Shown here in pieces: positions 1 to 17,268 of a DNA stretch of 24,426 nt. Position numbers and translations under genes: made by a program. Source of the stretch: a virus. The notes beneath the pieces are model-generated. The model was given only the letters and a program-made list of their open reading frames with translations, searched no databases and was not told the DNA's origin. Within the stretch, counting starts at the first letter, position 1; the number at the start of each line of letters is the position of its first letter. The DNA lies in the IMG/VR virus record IMGVR_UViG_3300042691_022657, positions 1 to 24,426 of that record. One strand, given 5' to 3'.

Positions 1-1605
1 ACGTTCAAGAAAGTCATTGACCGGCTGATGTGGGTGCAGGTGGCGCCCGCGCCAAACGCGCACGCGGCCGGGTCGTGCCTAGCGTCGGACCTCCGTTCGG
101 ACGTTTCGCGCAACCCGTTTATCTATCAGCTCGCGTCCGCAACCGTCCTGAACCGATACAACATCGTCACGAAGGGTTGGGCGTTCGTGCAGAGCCCGGC
201 GCTCGCCGGCACGTTCGGCGCGGGCGCGGCGATGGCCTACGCGCCGTCGCTGGGTTTGGTCGGCACGATCGCGGCGGGTGCGACGACGACGAGCGTTACG
301 CTGTCGACGGCGCTGCCGACGGCGGTCGGCCTGAATATGCTCGCGAACCGCGGCGGGTCGGGCGAGTACGGCTTCAAGCTGCGAATCATCGACACGACGG
401 CCGGCCGGACCGCCGAGCGGTACATCGTCGGGAATACCGCTGGCACGACGCCGACCATTACGGTGGCCTCGACGTTCGGCTTTACGCCGTCGACCGGCGC
501 CCGATACGAGATCATCGCCGGTCGCGTGTTCATGCTCGGCGCCGGTACGACGGCCGCGAACATCTGGCGGTCGTTCGAGGTATCGACCAACACGCTCTCG
601 ACGGGCCTCTCGACGACCGGCCTGCCGGCGACGGTCGGCACCGATAGCTCGATCATGGTGCTCGACGAGCAGTACACGCCGTTTAATTGCGCGCCCGGCG
701 ACGGGATGATCAAGGGTGGCTACAACTACGATTCTGGGCTGGTCCAGCGGTACGCCCTGACGGCGACGGCGGCGGGCGCCTCCAGCTTGACCGGGCAGGC
801 GTCGAATGGCGATGCCGTGGTCGCGGCGAACGAGTTCAGAAACTTCCAGATCCGCATCGTCGAGGACACGACGACGCCGGCCGCTGTGGGTCAGCGCCGC
901 ATAATTGCGTCCCATACCGCCGGTCCTAGCCCGGTTTACACGCTCGGTACGGCATGGACGACGCAGCCGTCGGCCTCGGCGAAGTTCGTCATCGAGCTGC
1001 CGAACCTGCTGCTGCTGCGGTCGTCTGCGACGACGACGGTGTACACCTACAACTACGGCGACGCGACGGTCAACAACGGCACCAACAGCATTGCGTCGGG
1101 CGCGTGGTCGACGACGTACTTCGGCGCGGCACCGGCCGCGAACGCAGCGGGCGGCATGTGGGCGCCGTCGTTCGGCATCGAGCCGGACGCAGCGCGTAAC
1201 GCGCGGCATTCGTTCTGCTACTTCTTCCGGGGCGGTGCAGCCACGCTGGACGTGCTCGACATTGCGGCCAGCGCGACGGGAACCTGGACAGGCGCGATCA
1301 CCTACGACGGGTCCGTGGCGTTGACGGTAGGCACGAGCGGCGCCTACTCGCCGTTCGATAACGAAGGCCGGATGTTCTACATGAACATCTACGCCGCGTC
1401 GGCCGTTAACCAGATTTACCGCTTCGACGTACAGAACAGGGTGCTATCGCCCTTCACGCCGACGGATTTCCTACAGACCGGCACGGCGACGCTCGGGCAG
1501 CGCATGGCGGCCTATGCGGCGATTGACGGCAACGACACATACGACGTCGTTCTGCTTCAGTCGCATCTTTCGACGGTCGCTCAGGAGATGGTGGTTCTCG
1601 TATGA
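1..1605 (+). CDS. Large beta-rich virion/fibre-module protein (5' end outside window)
   Basis: The reading frame is open from base 1 and the first ATG at 28 has no convincing ribosome binding site, so the start probably lies left of the window. At least 534 residues are visible. The protein is rich in Thr, Ala, Gly and aromatic beta-strand patterns, with no membrane segment or catalytic motif I recognise. Two stretches (about nt 255-525 and 760-1000) look like copies of one domain: each has an F-x-[LI]-R-I strand, then a [QE]-R-[RY]-I turn, an N/H-TAG segment, and ends in Y/F-x-I. Between and after them, segments such as RVFMLGAG, FCYFFRGGAATLDVLD and GRMFYMNIY followed by a YRFDVQNR strand resemble propeller blades. 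It heads the fibre module and ends in an ATGA overlap with the next gene. The virion role is inferred from context; the beta-propeller reading is a guess from strand patterns. Confidence 0.6.
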   Translation, partial: TFKKVIDRLMWVQVAPAPNAHAAGSCLASDLRSDVSRNPFIYQLASATVLNRYNIVTKGWAFVQSPALAGTFGAGAAMAYAPSLGLVGTIAAGATTTSVTLSTALPTAVGLNMLANRGGSGEYGFKLRIIDTTAGRTAERYIVGNTAGTTPTITVASTFGFTPSTGARYEIIAGRVFMLGAGTTAANIWRSFEVSTNTLSTGLSTTGLPATVGTDSSIMVLDEQYTPFNCAPGDGMIKGGYNYDSGLVQRYALTATAAGASSLTGQASNGDAVVAANEFRNFQIRIVEDTTTPAAVGQRRIIASHTAGPSPVYTLGTAWTTQPSASAKFVIELPNLLLLRSSATTTVYTYNYGDATVNNGTNSIASGAWSTTYFGAAPAANAAGGMWAPSFGIEPDAARNARHSFCYFFRGGAATLDVLDIAASATGTWTGAITYDGSVALTVGTSGAYSPFDNEGRMFYMNIYAASAVNQIYRFDVQNRVLSPFTPTDFLQTGTATLGQRMAAYAAIDGNDTYDVVLLQSHLSTVAQEMVVLV

Positions 1606-1766
1606 CCGTGCGCGAGTTGATTGACCTCGCTCAGGTCCGGCTGGCGTATCTCGCCCGGCAGCGTGAGACGGCGACGCGAGTGGGCGACGTCGCGCAGGTG
1701 GCGGCGGTCGATGCTGAGATCGCCGCGACACAGGAGACGCTGACCCAACTTCGGACGCTGCAGTAA
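1602..1766 (+). CDS. Small helical protein, fibre module (54 aa)
   Basis: The ATG at 1602 overlaps the preceding stop (ATGA), and the frame runs 54 codons to TAA. The product is almost wholly predicted helix. An N-terminal part contains RELIDLAQVRLAYLARQR, and a C-terminal amphipathic helix ends in TLTQLRTLQ with heptad-like Leu/Ala spacing. There are no Cys, membrane or enzymatic motifs. Similar tiny helical proteins occur beside fibre genes in other phage late regions, which supports it being real, as does the tight coupling to its neighbour. The role is unknown; a chaperone or trimerisation partner for the adjacent fibre proteins is possible but unproven. A 30-bp gap then holds the GAGAGG/TAAGG-type ribosome binding site of the next gene. 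Confidence 0.6.
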   Translation: MTVRELIDLAQVRLAYLARQRETATRVGDVAQVAAVDAEIAATQETLTQLRTLQ

Positions 1767-1796: not shown

Positions 1797-3044
1797 ATGA
1801 GCCTGCTGCTGCTATTCGGCGGGCAGCCGCAGTCGTCGGGTCCGCTGCACGTCTCGCCGACGACGCCTGAGACCGTCGTCCGTACGCGAACGGTCGACGG
1901 GAACGCCGGCAAGCTGCGCGCCGTCGCCGCGCTGGTCGCGCTCGGACTCGTCGGCGCCGGGGCGTCCGTCAGCCTCGACGCGCGGGCCGACGCCGGCTCG
2001 CACGCCGGCGCCGAGCGTCTGGCCAGCGCCACGCAGCTGGGCCGAGCGGACGGCGCGAGCGCGGCGACGGCCGAGGCGGTCGTCCCGCCCGCGCCGATCA
2101 CGACCTCGCCCAGCGCCCTAGACGTCGGCTACCGCACGGGCCTATTCCCGAGCGATCGGCCCGCGAAGGCGCTCTCGGCATTCGCTGCCGCTCCGCCGAC
2201 TTCGAGCCTAAGTCTCGACGGTCGTGCCGACGGTACGAGCTACGGCTCCGCCGAGGCCGCGCAGCTCGTCACCGGGACGACCTACACGACGCAGACCGTC
2301 GTCGAGGTCGCCTACCGCGCGCAGTACGCGCGCCAAAGCACCGCGGGGCCGGCGTACGCCGCCTGGCTAGCCGCGCCGCCGGTCCCGCCGCCGGTGCTGG
2401 TGCTGGTAGGCGCCGACCCGCATTCGTGGCCGCTGCCGGTCCGCTACGACCCCGTGCCCTACGGCGCGCGGGCGATGGCGGCGTTCACTGTGCTGCAGGG
2501 CGGCGCGGTCATCGTCCGAGATGGCTGGGCGGCGGGCACCTCGAGCGCGCGAGCCGACCGACAGGCCCAGTACGTCACCGACGCGCGCGCCGACGGCACC
2601 AGCGCCGCACACGCCCCGCGGGTCGCCACCGGCGCGCAGAGCGGCTCGGCGCACGGCACCAGCTACGCCGCCGCGTCTACGGCCGCCGGCGTCAGCCTCG
2701 ACGGGCGGGCGGATGCCACCTCGAGCGCGCTGGCCGAGCGGCTGGCGGTCGCGGTGCAGGCTGGTCGGGCAGACGGCACGGCCGTCGCCGACGCCGAGCG
2801 GCTGCAGCTCGTCGCCGTGGTGCTCGACGGGCACGCGGGCGCGACGTCGGTCGGGTACGCGGTCCGGCTCGTGCTGCGGGCGCTGGACGGCTGGGCGGAT
2901 GGGACGAGCGTGGCGCAGGCGCAGGCCGGGCCGGGCGTGATCCCGCCGCGGATCATCGTGAAGCCGCCGCGCCGGCCGCGCCTGAAGGCTGACGCAGATC
3001 GCAGCGTGACGATCACGGGATCGTCGCGCACCACCAAGGTCTAG
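1797..3044 (+). CDS. Repetitive fibre-module protein built of ~20-residue repeats
   Basis: This 415-residue protein begins at the ATG preceded by a TAAGG-type site. It starts MSLLLLFGG, a hydrophobic N-terminus I associate with phage fibre-cluster proteins. Most of the rest consists of degenerate copies of a motif of the form L-D-G-R-A-D-G-T-S-x-A-x-A-E-R-L. Clear copies begin near residues 60, 81, 140, 241, 261, 281, 301, 321, 343 and 363, with a strict 20-residue period from 241 to 340. A Pro-rich break (about 193-224) separates two repeat zones. The C-terminus is basic and Pro-rich (VKPPRRPRLK) and ends in a Ser/Thr-rich tail. There is no enzymatic motif. It lies between fibre genes and its stop overlaps the next ribosome binding site. 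I infer a structural spacer or shaft; the sequence family is not one I can name. Confidence 0.6.
   Translation: MSLLLLFGGQPQSSGPLHVSPTTPETVVRTRTVDGNAGKLRAVAALVALGLVGAGASVSLDARADAGSHAGAERLASATQLGRADGASAATAEAVVPPAPITTSPSALDVGYRTGLFPSDRPAKALSAFAAAPPTSSLSLDGRADGTSYGSAEAAQLVTGTTYTTQTVVEVAYRAQYARQSTAGPAYAAWLAAPPVPPPVLVLVGADPHSWPLPVRYDPVPYGARAMAAFTVLQGGAVIVRDGWAAGTSSARADRQAQYVTDARADGTSAAHAPRVATGAQSGSAHGTSYAAASTAAGVSLDGRADATSSALAERLAVAVQAGRADGTAVADAERLQLVAVVLDGHAGATSVGYAVRLVLRALDGWADGTSVAQAQAGPGVIPPRIIVKPPRRPRLKADADRSVTITGSSRTTKV
2517..2936 (+). repeat. Tandem 60-nt (20-codon) degenerate repeat block
   Basis: This covers residues 241-380 of the repetitive fibre-module protein. The [DTS]-[GA]-x-A-x-[GA]-T-S/A core recurs at residues 242, 262, 282, 302 and 322, then with a 2-residue slip at 344 and 364, giving seven copies. 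Conservation is at protein level (Gly, Ala, Thr and Ser positions and a terminal R-L); the DNA copies have diverged. That suggests old duplication held by selection rather than recent slippage. Weaker copies occur upstream at about nt 1974-2085 and 2214-2277. Confidence 0.7.
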
Positions 3045-3055
3045 GAGAACCGCTC

Positions 3056-3724
3056 ATGCGCGGCGATAGCAACGTCAATGCCGTCCTTAACCTGGTCTAC
3101 AAGGGCATCGCGATCCCGAACATCGCAGACAACGCCGCCAGTTCGCCCCTGACGAACTTTTTCGTCTCGCTGCACACCACCTGGCCGGGCAGTGCGGGCA
3201 GCCAGACCACGGGCGAGGTCGCATACACGAACTACGCTCGCCAGGCCGTCGCCCGTGGCCCCGGCTGGACGGTCACCGGCAAGCAGGTGTCGCCCGCCGC
3301 GCAGATCTCGTTCCCGCAGTGCGGAGCGACTGGTGCGACTGCGAACTTCTTCGCGGTGGGCACCGCAGCGTCGGGCGCCGGCTCCATCATCGACGTCGGC
3401 GTGATCGGCGCCGCGCCGCGCCTGGTGGTCGGCCAGACCAGCGACACGCTGATCGTCCCCGGCCACGGGCTGGTGTTGAACGACCAGGTCGCACTGTTCG
3501 GGGTCTACGGCCTCGCGCTGCCGACCGGCATAAGCGAGGGGGCCGTGCTGTTCGTGCGTACCGCGCCGGATGCCGACACCATCACGCTCTCCACCACGCA
3601 GGGCGGCGCCACGCTCGACATCACCGGCATCGGCGTCGGCAAGATCCAGCGCCTGACGCCTCACCTCATCGTGCCGGGCTACACGCCGATCCTCGGCACC
3701 GGCACCGTGATCCGGCACGAGTAA
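3056..3724 (+). CDS. Phage tail fibre protein
   Basis: The 222-residue product starts at an ATG with a strong AGGAG site (3043-3047) overlapping the previous stop. The N-terminal half has the signature of a family of short phage tail-fibre proteins: a segment giving FFVSLHTTWPG, a QTTGEVAYTNYARQAVAR stretch, GWTV, an ISFPQCGATG segment and FFAVGTAASGAG. The C-terminal half (about residues 120-205) contains a VPGHGL...NDQVALFG...ADTITLS pattern. That pattern resembles the beta-rich domain (Ubiquitin-activating-enzyme FCCH-like) also seen inside the tail-tube gene at 12295. It lies just upstream of a fibre-tail adaptor, consistent with a structural role at the tail tip. Family placement comes from recognising the motif series, not from a search. 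Confidence 0.75.
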   Translation: MRGDSNVNAVLNLVYKGIAIPNIADNAASSPLTNFFVSLHTTWPGSAGSQTTGEVAYTNYARQAVARGPGWTVTGKQVSPAAQISFPQCGATGATANFFAVGTAASGAGSIIDVGVIGAAPRLVVGQTSDTLIVPGHGLVLNDQVALFGVYGLALPTGISEGAVLFVRTAPDADTITLSTTQGGATLDITGIGVGKIQRLTPHLIVPGYTPILGTGTVIRHE

Positions 3725-3730
3725 GCGCGC

Positions 3731-4015
3731 GTGTCCGCAGCGATCGTACTGCTGGATCCCGCCGACCAGGCGCTGGTCACGATCAACTGGTCGGACGTGG
3801 CCATCGGGGGGTTGGAAATCGTGGGGTTCGTCACACACACCGTGCCGGCGCCACTGGTCAAGATCATCGAGATAACCGACGTTGCGACCAAGACCTCACA
3901 GGTACGCGTCACAGGCGCGGTGCACGGCGGCATGTACATGGTCGAGGCTACGGTCGAACTCAGTAACGGCGAGATCCTGAACAGGCAGTTTCCGCTGCGA
4001 GCTTTCAACGGGTGA
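3731..4015 (+). CDS. Fibre-tail adaptor-like protein
   Basis: This 94-residue all-beta protein starts at GTG 3731, six bases after the previous stop, without a strong ribosome binding site, so translation is probably coupled. The pattern runs from VTINWSDV through a THTVPAPL strand and a segment with GGMYMVEATVELSNG to a final R-Q-F-P-L-R. This matches the small Ig-like proteins annotated in phages as fibre-tail adaptors: a WSD near the N-terminus, a tryptophan- or valine-rich middle strand, and a G-G-x-Y/M-x-V hairpin. It probably links fibre proteins to the tail. Its stop overlaps the GTG of the HNH gene. Assignment rests on pattern and context. Confidence 0.6.
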   Translation: MSAAIVLLDPADQALVTINWSDVAIGGLEIVGFVTHTVPAPLVKIIEITDVATKTSQVRVTGAVHGGMYMVEATVELSNGEILNRQFPLRAFNG

Positions 4016-4338
4016 GCCGCTTCTACGATCGGCGCGTGTGGCGCGATCGTGTGCAGCCGCTGCAACTGGCCCGAGAGCCGCTCTGCCGCATGTGCAAGGC
4101 TGCAGGCCGCATCCAGCCCGCGACCCAGGTCGATCATGTCATGCCGATCGACGAGGGCGGCGACCCTGTCGACGAGGCGAACCTACAGAGCCTGTGCGAC
4201 GAGCACCACGGCATGAAGACGCGCCAGGAGCACGGCGCGACGAACGTGCGATGGGGTTGCGACGCGAATGGCCTGCCGCTCGACCCCAAGCACCCGTGGA
4301 GGGGTAGGGGGGCGAAATCTTCAGGCCCTATCGGTTGA
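4012..4338 (+). CDS. HNH endonuclease (packaging-associated)
   Basis: This 108-residue product starts at GTG 4012, overlapping the upstream stop. It has a complete HNH core. The zinc knuckle has Cys25-x2-Cys28 and Cys62-x2-His65, the catalytic strand is V-D-H-V-M-P-I with His42, Asn57 lies in EANLQSLC, and the distal His65/His66 complete the fold. HNH proteins encoded next to the small terminase in HK97-like phages cooperate with terminase in cos cleavage and genome maturation (HK97 gp74 is the model). The position directly before the terminase genes supports that role rather than homing. The Gly-rich basic C-terminus is typical. Confidence 0.9.
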   Translation: MSRFYDRRVWRDRVQPLQLAREPLCRMCKAAGRIQPATQVDHVMPIDEGGDPVDEANLQSLCDEHHGMKTRQEHGATNVRWGCDANGLPLDPKHPWRGRGAKSSGPIG

Positions 4339-15139: not shown

Positions 15140-15688
15140 ATGCCAGGGAGACGAGGCATCAACGCAATCGACTTGACTGGGCAGCGATTCGGCCGACTGG
15201 TCGTTCTAGAGCGCGCGCCCTCGCAGCCGCGCCTTACGAAGTGGCTCTGTCAGTGCGACTGCGGCGCGCAGACTGTCACGCGCACAGCCTACTTGCGCTG
15301 CGGCGATACCACGTCTTGCGGCTGTGCCGTGCGAGACTGGGCACGTCAAATGGCGCGCACGCTTGCGCCTGCGTTCCCGCGGCTTCGTCACGGCCACACC
15401 CGCAATACGCCCGGCGGCTGCTCGCCTACTTGGAACTCGTGGGCAGCAATGCGCGTCCGCTGCAAGAACCCGAAGCATCCTGGATGGCGCAACTACGGGG
15501 GCCGCGGGATCTCCGTTGATCCGGACTGGGATGTGTTTGATAACTTCCTGCGTGACATGGGCGAGCGCCCGCTGGGACTGACGCTGGACCGTATCGACGT
15601 GAACGGCCCTTACACAAAGTCCAACTGCCGCTGGGCAACCCGCGAGCAGCAGGCGCAGAACCGGCGACGGCCGCAGCGGGGGCTGTAG
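15140..15688 (+). CDS. Zinc-ribbon plus HNH-like protein (homing-type gene)
   Basis: The 182-residue product starts at ATG 15140, two bases after the tape measure stop, with no clear ribosome binding site. The N-terminal part has [15 protein letters not shown]. It is followed by a Cys cluster (Cys37, 39 and 41, Cys54, Cys60 and 62) that looks like a zinc ribbon. The C-terminal part contains N-Y-G-G-R-G-I (119-125), a [19 protein letters not shown] segment (148-165) and A-T-R-E-Q-Q, the pattern of mobile HNH-like or AP2-linked nucleases scattered in phage genomes. Its codon use is visibly less G/C-biased than that of its neighbours. It interrupts an otherwise canonical tail order, so I read it as an inserted selfish gene. 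DNA binding or cutting is inferred. Confidence 0.75.
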
Positions 15689-15690
15689 TC

Positions 15691-17268
15691 ATGGACTTTC
15701 TCCTGCCGCCGCACATCCCGGTCGCCGAGGTCGAATGGCAGCTGGTCGACTACTCGTCGCTGTTCCCCAACACGTTCGGTGGTGAGCCGAAGACGTACGA
15801 CCGCGGGCAGCGGTGGCTGGCGCGCTATCGGTTCGAGAACCTGCGTGACGCCGATCGCGCGACGCTGATGGCGCTCGCCGGTCAGCTGCGCGGCAAGTCG
15901 AACCGGCTGTGGGCGTGGGATCCGACGAACTTCCGGCGCGGGTCGTTTCCGACGAGCGAGCTGCTGCCGAACAACACGTTCGCGAACGGTACGGCAGGGT
16001 GGGCGGCCGGCACCGCCGGCAGCAACTGGACGCTGAGCGTGCAGGGGCGGGTGGCGCGCTCGACCCGAACGCAGGTGACGGCCGTTGACTATGCGCTGCT
16101 CGCTAATCCGCAGGTGACCGGCCTCGTGTCGCTCGCCCCGTACGTCTCGCGGTTCATGGTGCTGGCTGGGCGCGGCTCGACCGCCAGCGGGCACGCGATC
16201 AACGACGTCTCAAACGCGGTGTCGGGAGCGGCGCAGACGTCTCTCGGCCTGTTGTCGCAGGTGTTCGTGCCGACGACCGCTGCGCTGCAGCCGGGCATCA
16301 CGTCGCTGACGAACTCCGGCGCGCTGGCGGGCGACTATCTTGAGTTTCCATACACCTCGCTCTCGCGCTGCGCGCTGGTCGACGGCGGCGCCAACCTGCT
16401 GACGCACTCCAGCCAGATCGACAATGCAGCGTGGACCAAGGCCGGCGCCACGGTGGCAGCCAACGCCTTCACGGCGCCGGACGGCACGGCAACTGCCGAC
16501 GTGCTGGTTGAGAACACCGCCAATTCCGCGCATCGCGTCGACGGTCCGAACGTGGCCGCGGGCGCCACGGCCGAGGACTACGTGTTTGCCGTCGCACTGC
16601 GCGACGTGGGGCGCGCGTGGGCTTACGTCCAGCTGTACAGCGGTGGCGGCGCGAACTCCGTGATCACCTACGTCAACCTGGCGGCCGGAACGCTCGGCTC
16701 CGACACGACGAACGGCGCGTGGACCAACCGCGTGCGCTCAATCCGGCCGCTCGGCAACGGCTGGCACTACGTGATGATCGGCGGTCGGAAGCCGGCGACT
16801 GACGCCGTCGTGACGGCGCGCATCGGGGCCGCCTCCGCCGATCTGGTCCCGTCCTACACGGGCTCGGGCAGCAACGCGACGGCGATCTGGCGCGCCACGG
16901 TCGCTCGTGGCCTTAACAGCGTCCGGCTGGTCGAAACCGGTGCTTCGGCGCTCCCTACGGGGACGGCGCAGACCGGCACCAGCCTGCACCTCAAGGGATT
17001 GCCGCCCTCGGCATCCGGCCTGCTGCTGCCCGGCGACCGCTTTCAGGTCGGCAGCGAAACCAAGATCGCGACTGCCCCGCTGGACACCGACGCGGCCGGG
17101 CTCGGGTTCCTGCAGTTCGAGCCCGCGTTGCGCGCGGCGGCGGCCGACAGCGCGCCGGTCATCATTCACGAACCCATGCAGAAGTTCGTACTCGCCGAGT
17201 CGGCATCGTGGCCGACCCGGCCGGGCCGATTCTCCGACTTCTCGCTCGTGCTCGCGGAGGCACGATGA
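15691..17268 (+). CDS. Distal-tail-like protein with carbohydrate-binding-like insertion
   Basis: The 525-residue product starts at ATG 15691. Residues 1 to about 88 (a LVDYSSLFPNTFGGE segment, then QRWLARYRFENLRDADRATL, ending W-A-W-D-P-T) and the end (about 430-525: L-K-G-L-P, then G-L-L-L-P-G-D-R-F-Q-V-G and F-V-L-A-E-S) together make the compact tail protein seen alone in related phages. Between them lie about 340 extra residues. One beta domain begins E-L-L-P-N-N-T-F. A second opens N-L-L-T-H-S-S-Q-I-D-N-A-A-W-T-K and closes with a GNGWHYVMIGGR strand; it resembles the sugar-binding-like modules of phage tip proteins. Such 'evolved' distal tail proteins add host-surface adhesion. The receptor is unknown. 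Confidence 0.72.
   Translation: MDFLLPPHIPVAEVEWQLVDYSSLFPNTFGGEPKTYDRGQRWLARYRFENLRDADRATLMALAGQLRGKSNRLWAWDPTNFRRGSFPTSELLPNNTFANGTAGWAAGTAGSNWTLSVQGRVARSTRTQVTAVDYALLANPQVTGLVSLAPYVSRFMVLAGRGSTASGHAINDVSNAVSGAAQTSLGLLSQVFVPTTAALQPGITSLTNSGALAGDYLEFPYTSLSRCALVDGGANLLTHSSQIDNAAWTKAGATVAANAFTAPDGTATADVLVENTANSAHRVDGPNVAAGATAEDYVFAVALRDVGRAWAYVQLYSGGGANSVITYVNLAAGTLGSDTTNGAWTNRVRSIRPLGNGWHYVMIGGRKPATDAVVTARIGAASADLVPSYTGSGSNATAIWRATVARGLNSVRLVETGASALPTGTAQTGTSLHLKGLPPSASGLLLPGDRFQVGSETKIATAPLDTDAAGLGFLQFEPALRAAAADSAPVIIHEPMQKFVLAESASWPTRPGRFSDFSLVLAEAR

Follow-up and report, generated by a model that had tools for sequence, protein, structure and literature searches.

A 20-residue repeat protein encoded beside GP4-type fibre genes: a probable length-variable fibre stalk or adhesin

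Introduction

Ralstonia phage GP4 provides a structurally solved reference (PDB 8JOU) for a fibre-I protein (gp80) and a fibre-tail adaptor (gp77). In Alishewanella phage LSH1, gp34-36 comprise an adhesin, a GP4 fibril homologue and a small Ig-fold protein (PMC13243795). The passages of that paper on the adhesin report poor beta-helix predictions for its spacer parts, which the authors regard as beta-helix-like or disordered. For Burkholderia phage JC1, virion proteomics is available: Table 6 of the respective study (PMC9144972) includes gp53 and gp55 among the detected virion proteins, and gp54, encoded between them, is absent from this table.

The DNA analysed here, called the window, is the whole stretch of 24,426 nucleotides of IMG/VR virus record IMGVR_UViG_3300042691_022657. 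It carries genes for homologues of both GP4 proteins. These genes are preceded by a gene for a repeat protein designated REP; the position of this gene is called the slot, and JC1 gp54 is a slot protein as well. Repeat proteins of phage fibre modules usually stay 'hypothetical', and REP can now be tied to a structurally solved anchor, 8JOU.

The REP gene and its 20-residue units

REP (415 aa; 1797..3044, + strand) starts with MSLLLLF, and a ribosome-binding-like GAGAGG is found at 1784-1789. A sequence-only reading of the window had placed the start of the feature at 1974, which lies inside the gene. A spurious open reading frame is unlikely because the GC content at the three codon positions is 75/63/90% and the gene belongs to a tight same-strand operon.

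The protein contains ten copies of a 20-residue unit with the consensus LAxVVLDGRADGTSxAxAER, all without internal gaps and all encoded on the + strand. Two of them form an N-terminal pair with a spacing of 20 (aa 55-94; 1959..2078, units at 1959-2018 and 2019-2078), one is located centrally (aa 135-154; 2199..2258), and seven constitute the C-terminal array (2502..2927, units at 2502-2561, 2562-2621, 2622-2681, 2682-2741, 2742-2801, 2808-2867 and 2868-2927). In the array, the motif glycine occupies aa 243, 263, 283, 303, 323, 345 and 365, which corresponds to spacings of 20, 20, 20, 20, 22 and 20. The upstream copies have it at aa 62, 82 and 142, and no copy is present between aa 155 and 235. 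The sequence-only reading had described seven consecutive copies, with an exact 20-residue register in five, and more copies upstream, and both are there. Its term 'strict' overstates the regularity in view of the single spacing of 22 and the copy-free stretch.

Among the ten units, A10 and A18 are invariant, S14 is found in nine, G8, T13 and A16 in eight, D7, D11 and G12 in seven, and R9 and R20 in six. Positions 8, 10, 12, 14, 16 and 18 are occupied by Gly, Ala or Ser in 60 of 60 cases, compared to 15 of 70 for the odd-numbered positions from 7 to 19 and 39% in the whole protein. Ala accounts for 87 of the 415 residues. Self-identity of REP at lag 20 amounts to 81 versus 38.8 expected (z 7.8, 500 shuffles). 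Lag 2 stands out, too, as do lags 42, 60 and 62, which can be composed of 20 and 22; lag 4 is weak (z 2.6/1.8), and lags 3 and 7 are not significant in the comparison with shuffles. Both a collagen-like protein (Gly-X-Y) and a heptad coiled coil had been dismissed from the letters alone, and the missing periods 3 and 7 agree with this. An alpha-helical, glycine-zipper-like array is very improbable: a weak Gly-zipper match of a relative, L061 (E 0.012; 15.9 bits, below the cut-off of 25), points in its direction, whereas the strict alternation of small residues, the prominence of lag 2 instead of 3 or 7 with only a faint lag 4, and the strands in the AlphaFold2 models (see below) argue against it. 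Here and in the following, L-numbers denote loci retrieved in this analysis.

At the DNA level, a two-copy motif pattern matches the window six times, five of them inside the REP gene, with 0.12 matches expected. When the copies were compared, 388 residue pairs were identical; 176 of them use the same codon, and 180.6 are expected from the codon usage of the gene. The conserved Ser is encoded four times by TCG and five times by AGC. Synonymous codons are random between the copies, which indicates old copies and a pattern maintained at the protein level. This substantiates the earlier suggestion that the DNA has diverged under selection for the pattern.

REP ends in a short basic tail (PPRIIVKPPRRPRLKADADRSVTITGSSRTTKV; 2943..3041, + strand), which by eye resembles the endings of repeat proteins from L011 (GRTVVVAGPSRTI; BLAST E 1.1) and L114 (GSRSTTVH).

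Relatives of the repeat in other viruses

Searches with the REP sequence in Pfam, PHROG, phages, plasmids, viral contigs and the PDB yielded no match, and the BLAST low-complexity filter may mask weak ones. The pattern DG[RW]ADGTSxAxA, which is specific for the window, has zero matches in viral contigs and matches one copy in the window itself. A more general DNA pattern was composed of two GxAxGTS copies and a relaxed third one, every 60 bases and in frame. It matches 69 stretches in viral contigs; a control pattern in which every gap was lengthened by one base matches none there. Some of the 69, for example L046, L075 and L096, are unrelated simple repeats. The repeat is no isolated case: its motif and period recur in many viral contigs.

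In the retrieved open reading frames, consecutive motifs are separated by 20 residues in 278 cases and by 22 in 29. Where a frame has four or more pairs spaced by 20 (51 frames), the counts for distances of 18, 19, 20, 21 and 22 residues are 12, 5, 391, 3 and 42. Some of the spacings of 20 are imposed by the search pattern itself, which does not explain why 22 is more frequent than 21. Inherited copies are counted repeatedly in these totals, with one 22-residue spacing common to the L039 group. When a profile built from the retrieved frames was applied to 589 open reading frames, REP ranked third by its best five units in register (-26.9 versus -97.2 for the best of 1000 shuffles), five columns of this profile being preset by the search pattern. 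The best single unit of REP scored lower (5.4) than the best shuffle (10.4). The two frames that outrank REP belong to L029 and L030, which were retrieved through gp80 alone and not through the repeat, and which also encode such repeat proteins.

No significant pairwise similarity was found between REP and any other repeat protein from phages or viral contigs. REP shares the 20-residue GxAxGTS architecture with other phage proteins, and its kinship with them is putative. In genome contigs, the three-copy pattern matches eight stretches. According to their open reading frames, L109, which originates from a Sphingomonadales MAG and is adjoined by gp80 and gp77, is the sole real relative among them, and the remaining seven represent different simple repeats. 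Ten repeat proteins of this kind were scanned: none exceeds a Pfam cut-off, and three match a PHROG with E ≤0.001. A search with limited wording of the open-licence literature found no report on 20-residue repeats in phage tail fibres. REP is best read as one of many uncatalogued repeat proteins of this kind.

Linkage to GP4-type fibre genes

In the window, REP is followed by gp80 and then by gp77. The gp80 homologue (3056..3724, + strand) corresponds to GP4 fibre I in its first ~140 residues (Pfam PF23140, 42.9 bits, cut-off 27) and possesses an extra C-terminal part. The gp77 homologue (3731..4015, + strand) matches the fibre-tail adaptor (Pfam PF23148, 30.5 bits, cut-off 27). Profiles built from relatives of both proteins lead to the GP4 structure, with E 7.4e-7 for 8jou_a (gp80) and E 4.8e-12 for 8jou_D (gp77). 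Because REP directly precedes these two genes, its assignment to a fibre module, already proposed from the sequence alone, is well supported. The extra part of the gp80 homologue (residues ~128-199) has separate matches to L003, L004 and Microbacterium phages.

Further downstream, HNH, terminase, portal, capsid and tail-tip genes are located; the names terminase, distal-tail and J-like are based on matches, and the others were assigned by reading the open reading frames. Two HNH-like genes (4012-4338 and 15140-15688) are interspersed with structural genes; in other loci, relatives of the first one are found before the gene for the small terminase. The distal-tail-like protein (15691-17268) matches two different tail families, phrog_1302 at its C-terminus and phrog_5939 in the middle, which suggests an inserted domain.

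The association extends to other viruses. Using our own HMM (E ≤0.01), gp80 homologues were detected in 28 of the 69 repeat stretches, always on the same strand, and in one of 24 loci of a comparison set fetched via terminase (Fisher p 4e-4). Among the stretches with at least four pairs, 20 of 51 have gp80 (p 9e-4 against the same set). In the other 41 of the 69 no gp80 was seen; the amount of DNA per locus varies, so that a miss does not imply absence. L055 and L061 display the order of the window, repeat-gp80-gp77. Pfam Gp77 matches (E ≤0.01) were obtained for nine of 24 small proteins, most of which are encoded by the gene after the repeat frame and which include those of the window and L011. 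Tail-fibre families are matched by several of 28 larger following genes, the most frequent family by five of 28. In the L039 group, the C-terminal tail differs, and tail-fibre-like genes come next in place of gp77.

The slot after A28 and B54

Two genes precede REP on the + strand. A28 (525 aa; 28..1605) has no match in Pfam or PHROG. B54 (54 aa; 1602..1766), its conserved partner, overlaps the A28 end (ATGA). Relatives of A28 were found in 227 stretches of viral contigs, with 78-89% identity in the best 80 loci. In tblastn, B54 follows A28 in 66 of these best 80 of 227. The only named phages with A28 are the Synechococcus phages MinM1, B23 and S-CRM01. A rule for M-LL-type starts identified the third gene in 46 of the 80 loci. 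In the remaining 34, the available DNA is too short, a different gene is present, or the start rule overlooked the slot gene.

Taking these 46 slot genes together with those of the window and Pam2, 17 show a strong period (z >6), and it is always 20-23 residues: 20 in two, 21 in four, 22 in five and 23 in six. L115-L119 are near-identical, so that the 17 are not 17 independent cases. L180 falls just under the threshold (z 5.9, period 22). The strongly periodic proteins constitute eight groups with no blastp similarity between groups. Most other slot proteins lack a strong period and have 106-187 residues. As a control, other open reading frames of at least 200 residues were inspected: z >6 was found in eight of 714, with periods of 13, 13, 13, 17, 20, 21, 21 and 39, and the two with period 21 (L170, L171) are slot genes that the start rule had missed. 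Many A28 loci, among them L130, L147, L157 and L185, encode in place of a repeat protein a short slot protein that starts with MFLTLLQ or MLLTLLQ and has a hydrophobic or acidic end. These short proteins are probably helical.

L114 is the clearest case for comparison. Here, A28 (89% identical to the window) and B54 (68%) are followed by a 21-residue repeat protein and then by a Gp77 gene over the cut-off (46%), and no significant similarity was found between REP and its L114 counterpart (E 3.2). Related phages also vary in the number of units, by whole units: 8 versus 12 (L120, L126), 8 versus 9 (L142, L165) and 9-13 in the L039 group. A comparison of repeat numbers among related phages, suggested by the sequence-only reading, thus reveals differing copy numbers. 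L011, a phage whose head genes show the highest similarity (portal 72%), is an exception to the range of 20-23. Its repeat protein (306-1094), located before gp77, has a unit of ~32-34 residues.

The strongly periodic proteins after A28-B54 all have a period of 20-23 in spite of unrelated sequences, which is a testable rule. It points to one shared rod architecture in the slot as a means to vary fibre length and surface, and suggests that the REP-type repeat is a fast-evolving building block of fibres. A more far-reaching interpretation is tentative: The repeat sequence in the slot might have been replaced repeatedly, while the length remained fixed at 20-23 and spacing shifted mostly by two. 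The result would be a period-locked, nearly sequence-free rod, which is held by conserved ends and whose length and surface can be quickly varied.

Fold of the repeat array

AlphaFold2 with REP and 11 relatives yielded a mean pLDDT of 42.3, with 288 of 415 residues below 50. The models have two strands per REP unit and a pLDDT of ~55-63 across most of the array. For the L039 relative with 18 others, the mean pLDDT was 51.0. Foldseek searches against the PDB gave no hit with E <0.001 (best E 2.1 for REP and 0.45 for a relative).

The main argument for a beta structure of the array is the alternation of small and large residues combined with the even-numbered spacing: Spacing changes are mostly by two residues, and even-numbered changes preserve the inward/outward parity of a beta strand. 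Hence, the beta part of the beta-solenoid claimed in the sequence-only reading is favoured, and the solenoid itself is not established, given the low-confidence models and the missing significant fold match. The alternation and the spacing make a beta-solenoid plausible.

Alternatively, the repeat region could be a flexible, mostly disordered linker that acts as an entropic spacer, with the 20-residue pattern as a relic of unit duplication. The low pLDDT values and the Ala-rich composition are compatible with this, and the LSH1 authors encountered the same ambiguity for the C-terminal part of their adhesin, as the respective passages state (PMC13243795). However, synonymous sites are randomized, yet small residues are kept at every alternating position, and a period of 20-23 recurs in sequence-unrelated proteins of the same slot, a register that a linker would not need. 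We regard a linker as unlikely.

Phage fibres are commonly trimers. The units might therefore build an intertwined trimeric beta-fibre and not a single-chain solenoid. A face composed of small residues only would permit close chain-chain packing, and the single-chain models are weak. This arrangement is doubtful, although somewhat less so than the linker.

REP as a probable stalk of a GP4-type fibre

Probably, REP serves a GP4-type fibre module as a structural protein, either a length-variable, beta-rich stalk or an adhesin. In such a stalk, each unit would form one coil, or a strand pair, of a beta-rich rod. One face of the rod would consist of Gly, Ala and Ser only, and several chains may pack closely through it. 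The number of units would determine the length of the stalk, which would present or space the receptor-binding part. The basic C-terminal tail could dock on the fibre-I or the adaptor protein and tie the rod to the tail. A role as tail spacer, as formulated in the sequence-only reading, would be in line with this.

A third possibility is that REP stays outside the virion as a chaperone-like aid in fibre assembly, which is left behind. We consider this quite improbable. It would account for JC1 gp54, which is missing from the virion proteins in Table 6 with both of its neighbours present (PMC9144972). On the other hand, the database records of BcepIL02, BcepMigl and DC1 designate the slot protein as 'virion structural protein', which is a record label only, and the slot protein of Mae-JY28 has an extra N-terminal region. 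To our knowledge, tandem arrays that vary in length are rare among chaperones, which also argues against an assembly aid. For the stalk or adhesin, we infer that REP is not only encoded in the fibre operon but is part of the fibre; the JC1 table speaks against this step.

Comparison with known systems

Proteins in or near a REP-type slot were compared in named phages. A best period of 20 was found for BcepIL02 gp56 (z 8.3), DC1 gp54 (z 8.5) and the slot-region proteins of BcepMigl (z 5.0), Mae-JY28 (z 5.3), DSL-LC06 (z 3.8) and MW202711 (z 9.6), and a best period of 23 for those of Mwe-JY26 (z 8.1) and Pam2 (z 14.6). Lacusarx gp194 (z 3.8 at 18) and RXM_154 (z 2.4 at 29) lack a strong period. 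In S-CRM01, gene 023, annotated as tail fibre, is located directly after the A28 homologue. Unlike REP, it has a collagen-type repeat with a best period of 15, not 20. A GxAxGTS relative in L039 matches phrog_23524 (function not assigned; E 3e-6), whereas REP has no match to it.

The gene order is not constant, either. Whereas the repeat gene precedes gp80 in the window, Burkholderia phage BcepIL02, DC1, Microcystis phage Mae-JY28 and Lacusarx have gp80 and gp77 on either side of the variable gene. LSH1, as far as described in the passages cited above, has a three-gene module of the same kind and a poorly predicted stretch in its adhesin; it differs in gp34, which has a lyase-like beta helix, whereas REP is without a recognisable enzyme domain. 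BcepIL02 gp56 and DC1 gp54, encoded between a 'head protein' gene and a gp77-like gene, have another unit sequence, and the phage-record search revealed no pairwise similarity between them and REP. Nevertheless, they share with REP the 20-residue period, the same slot and a basic C-terminal tail.
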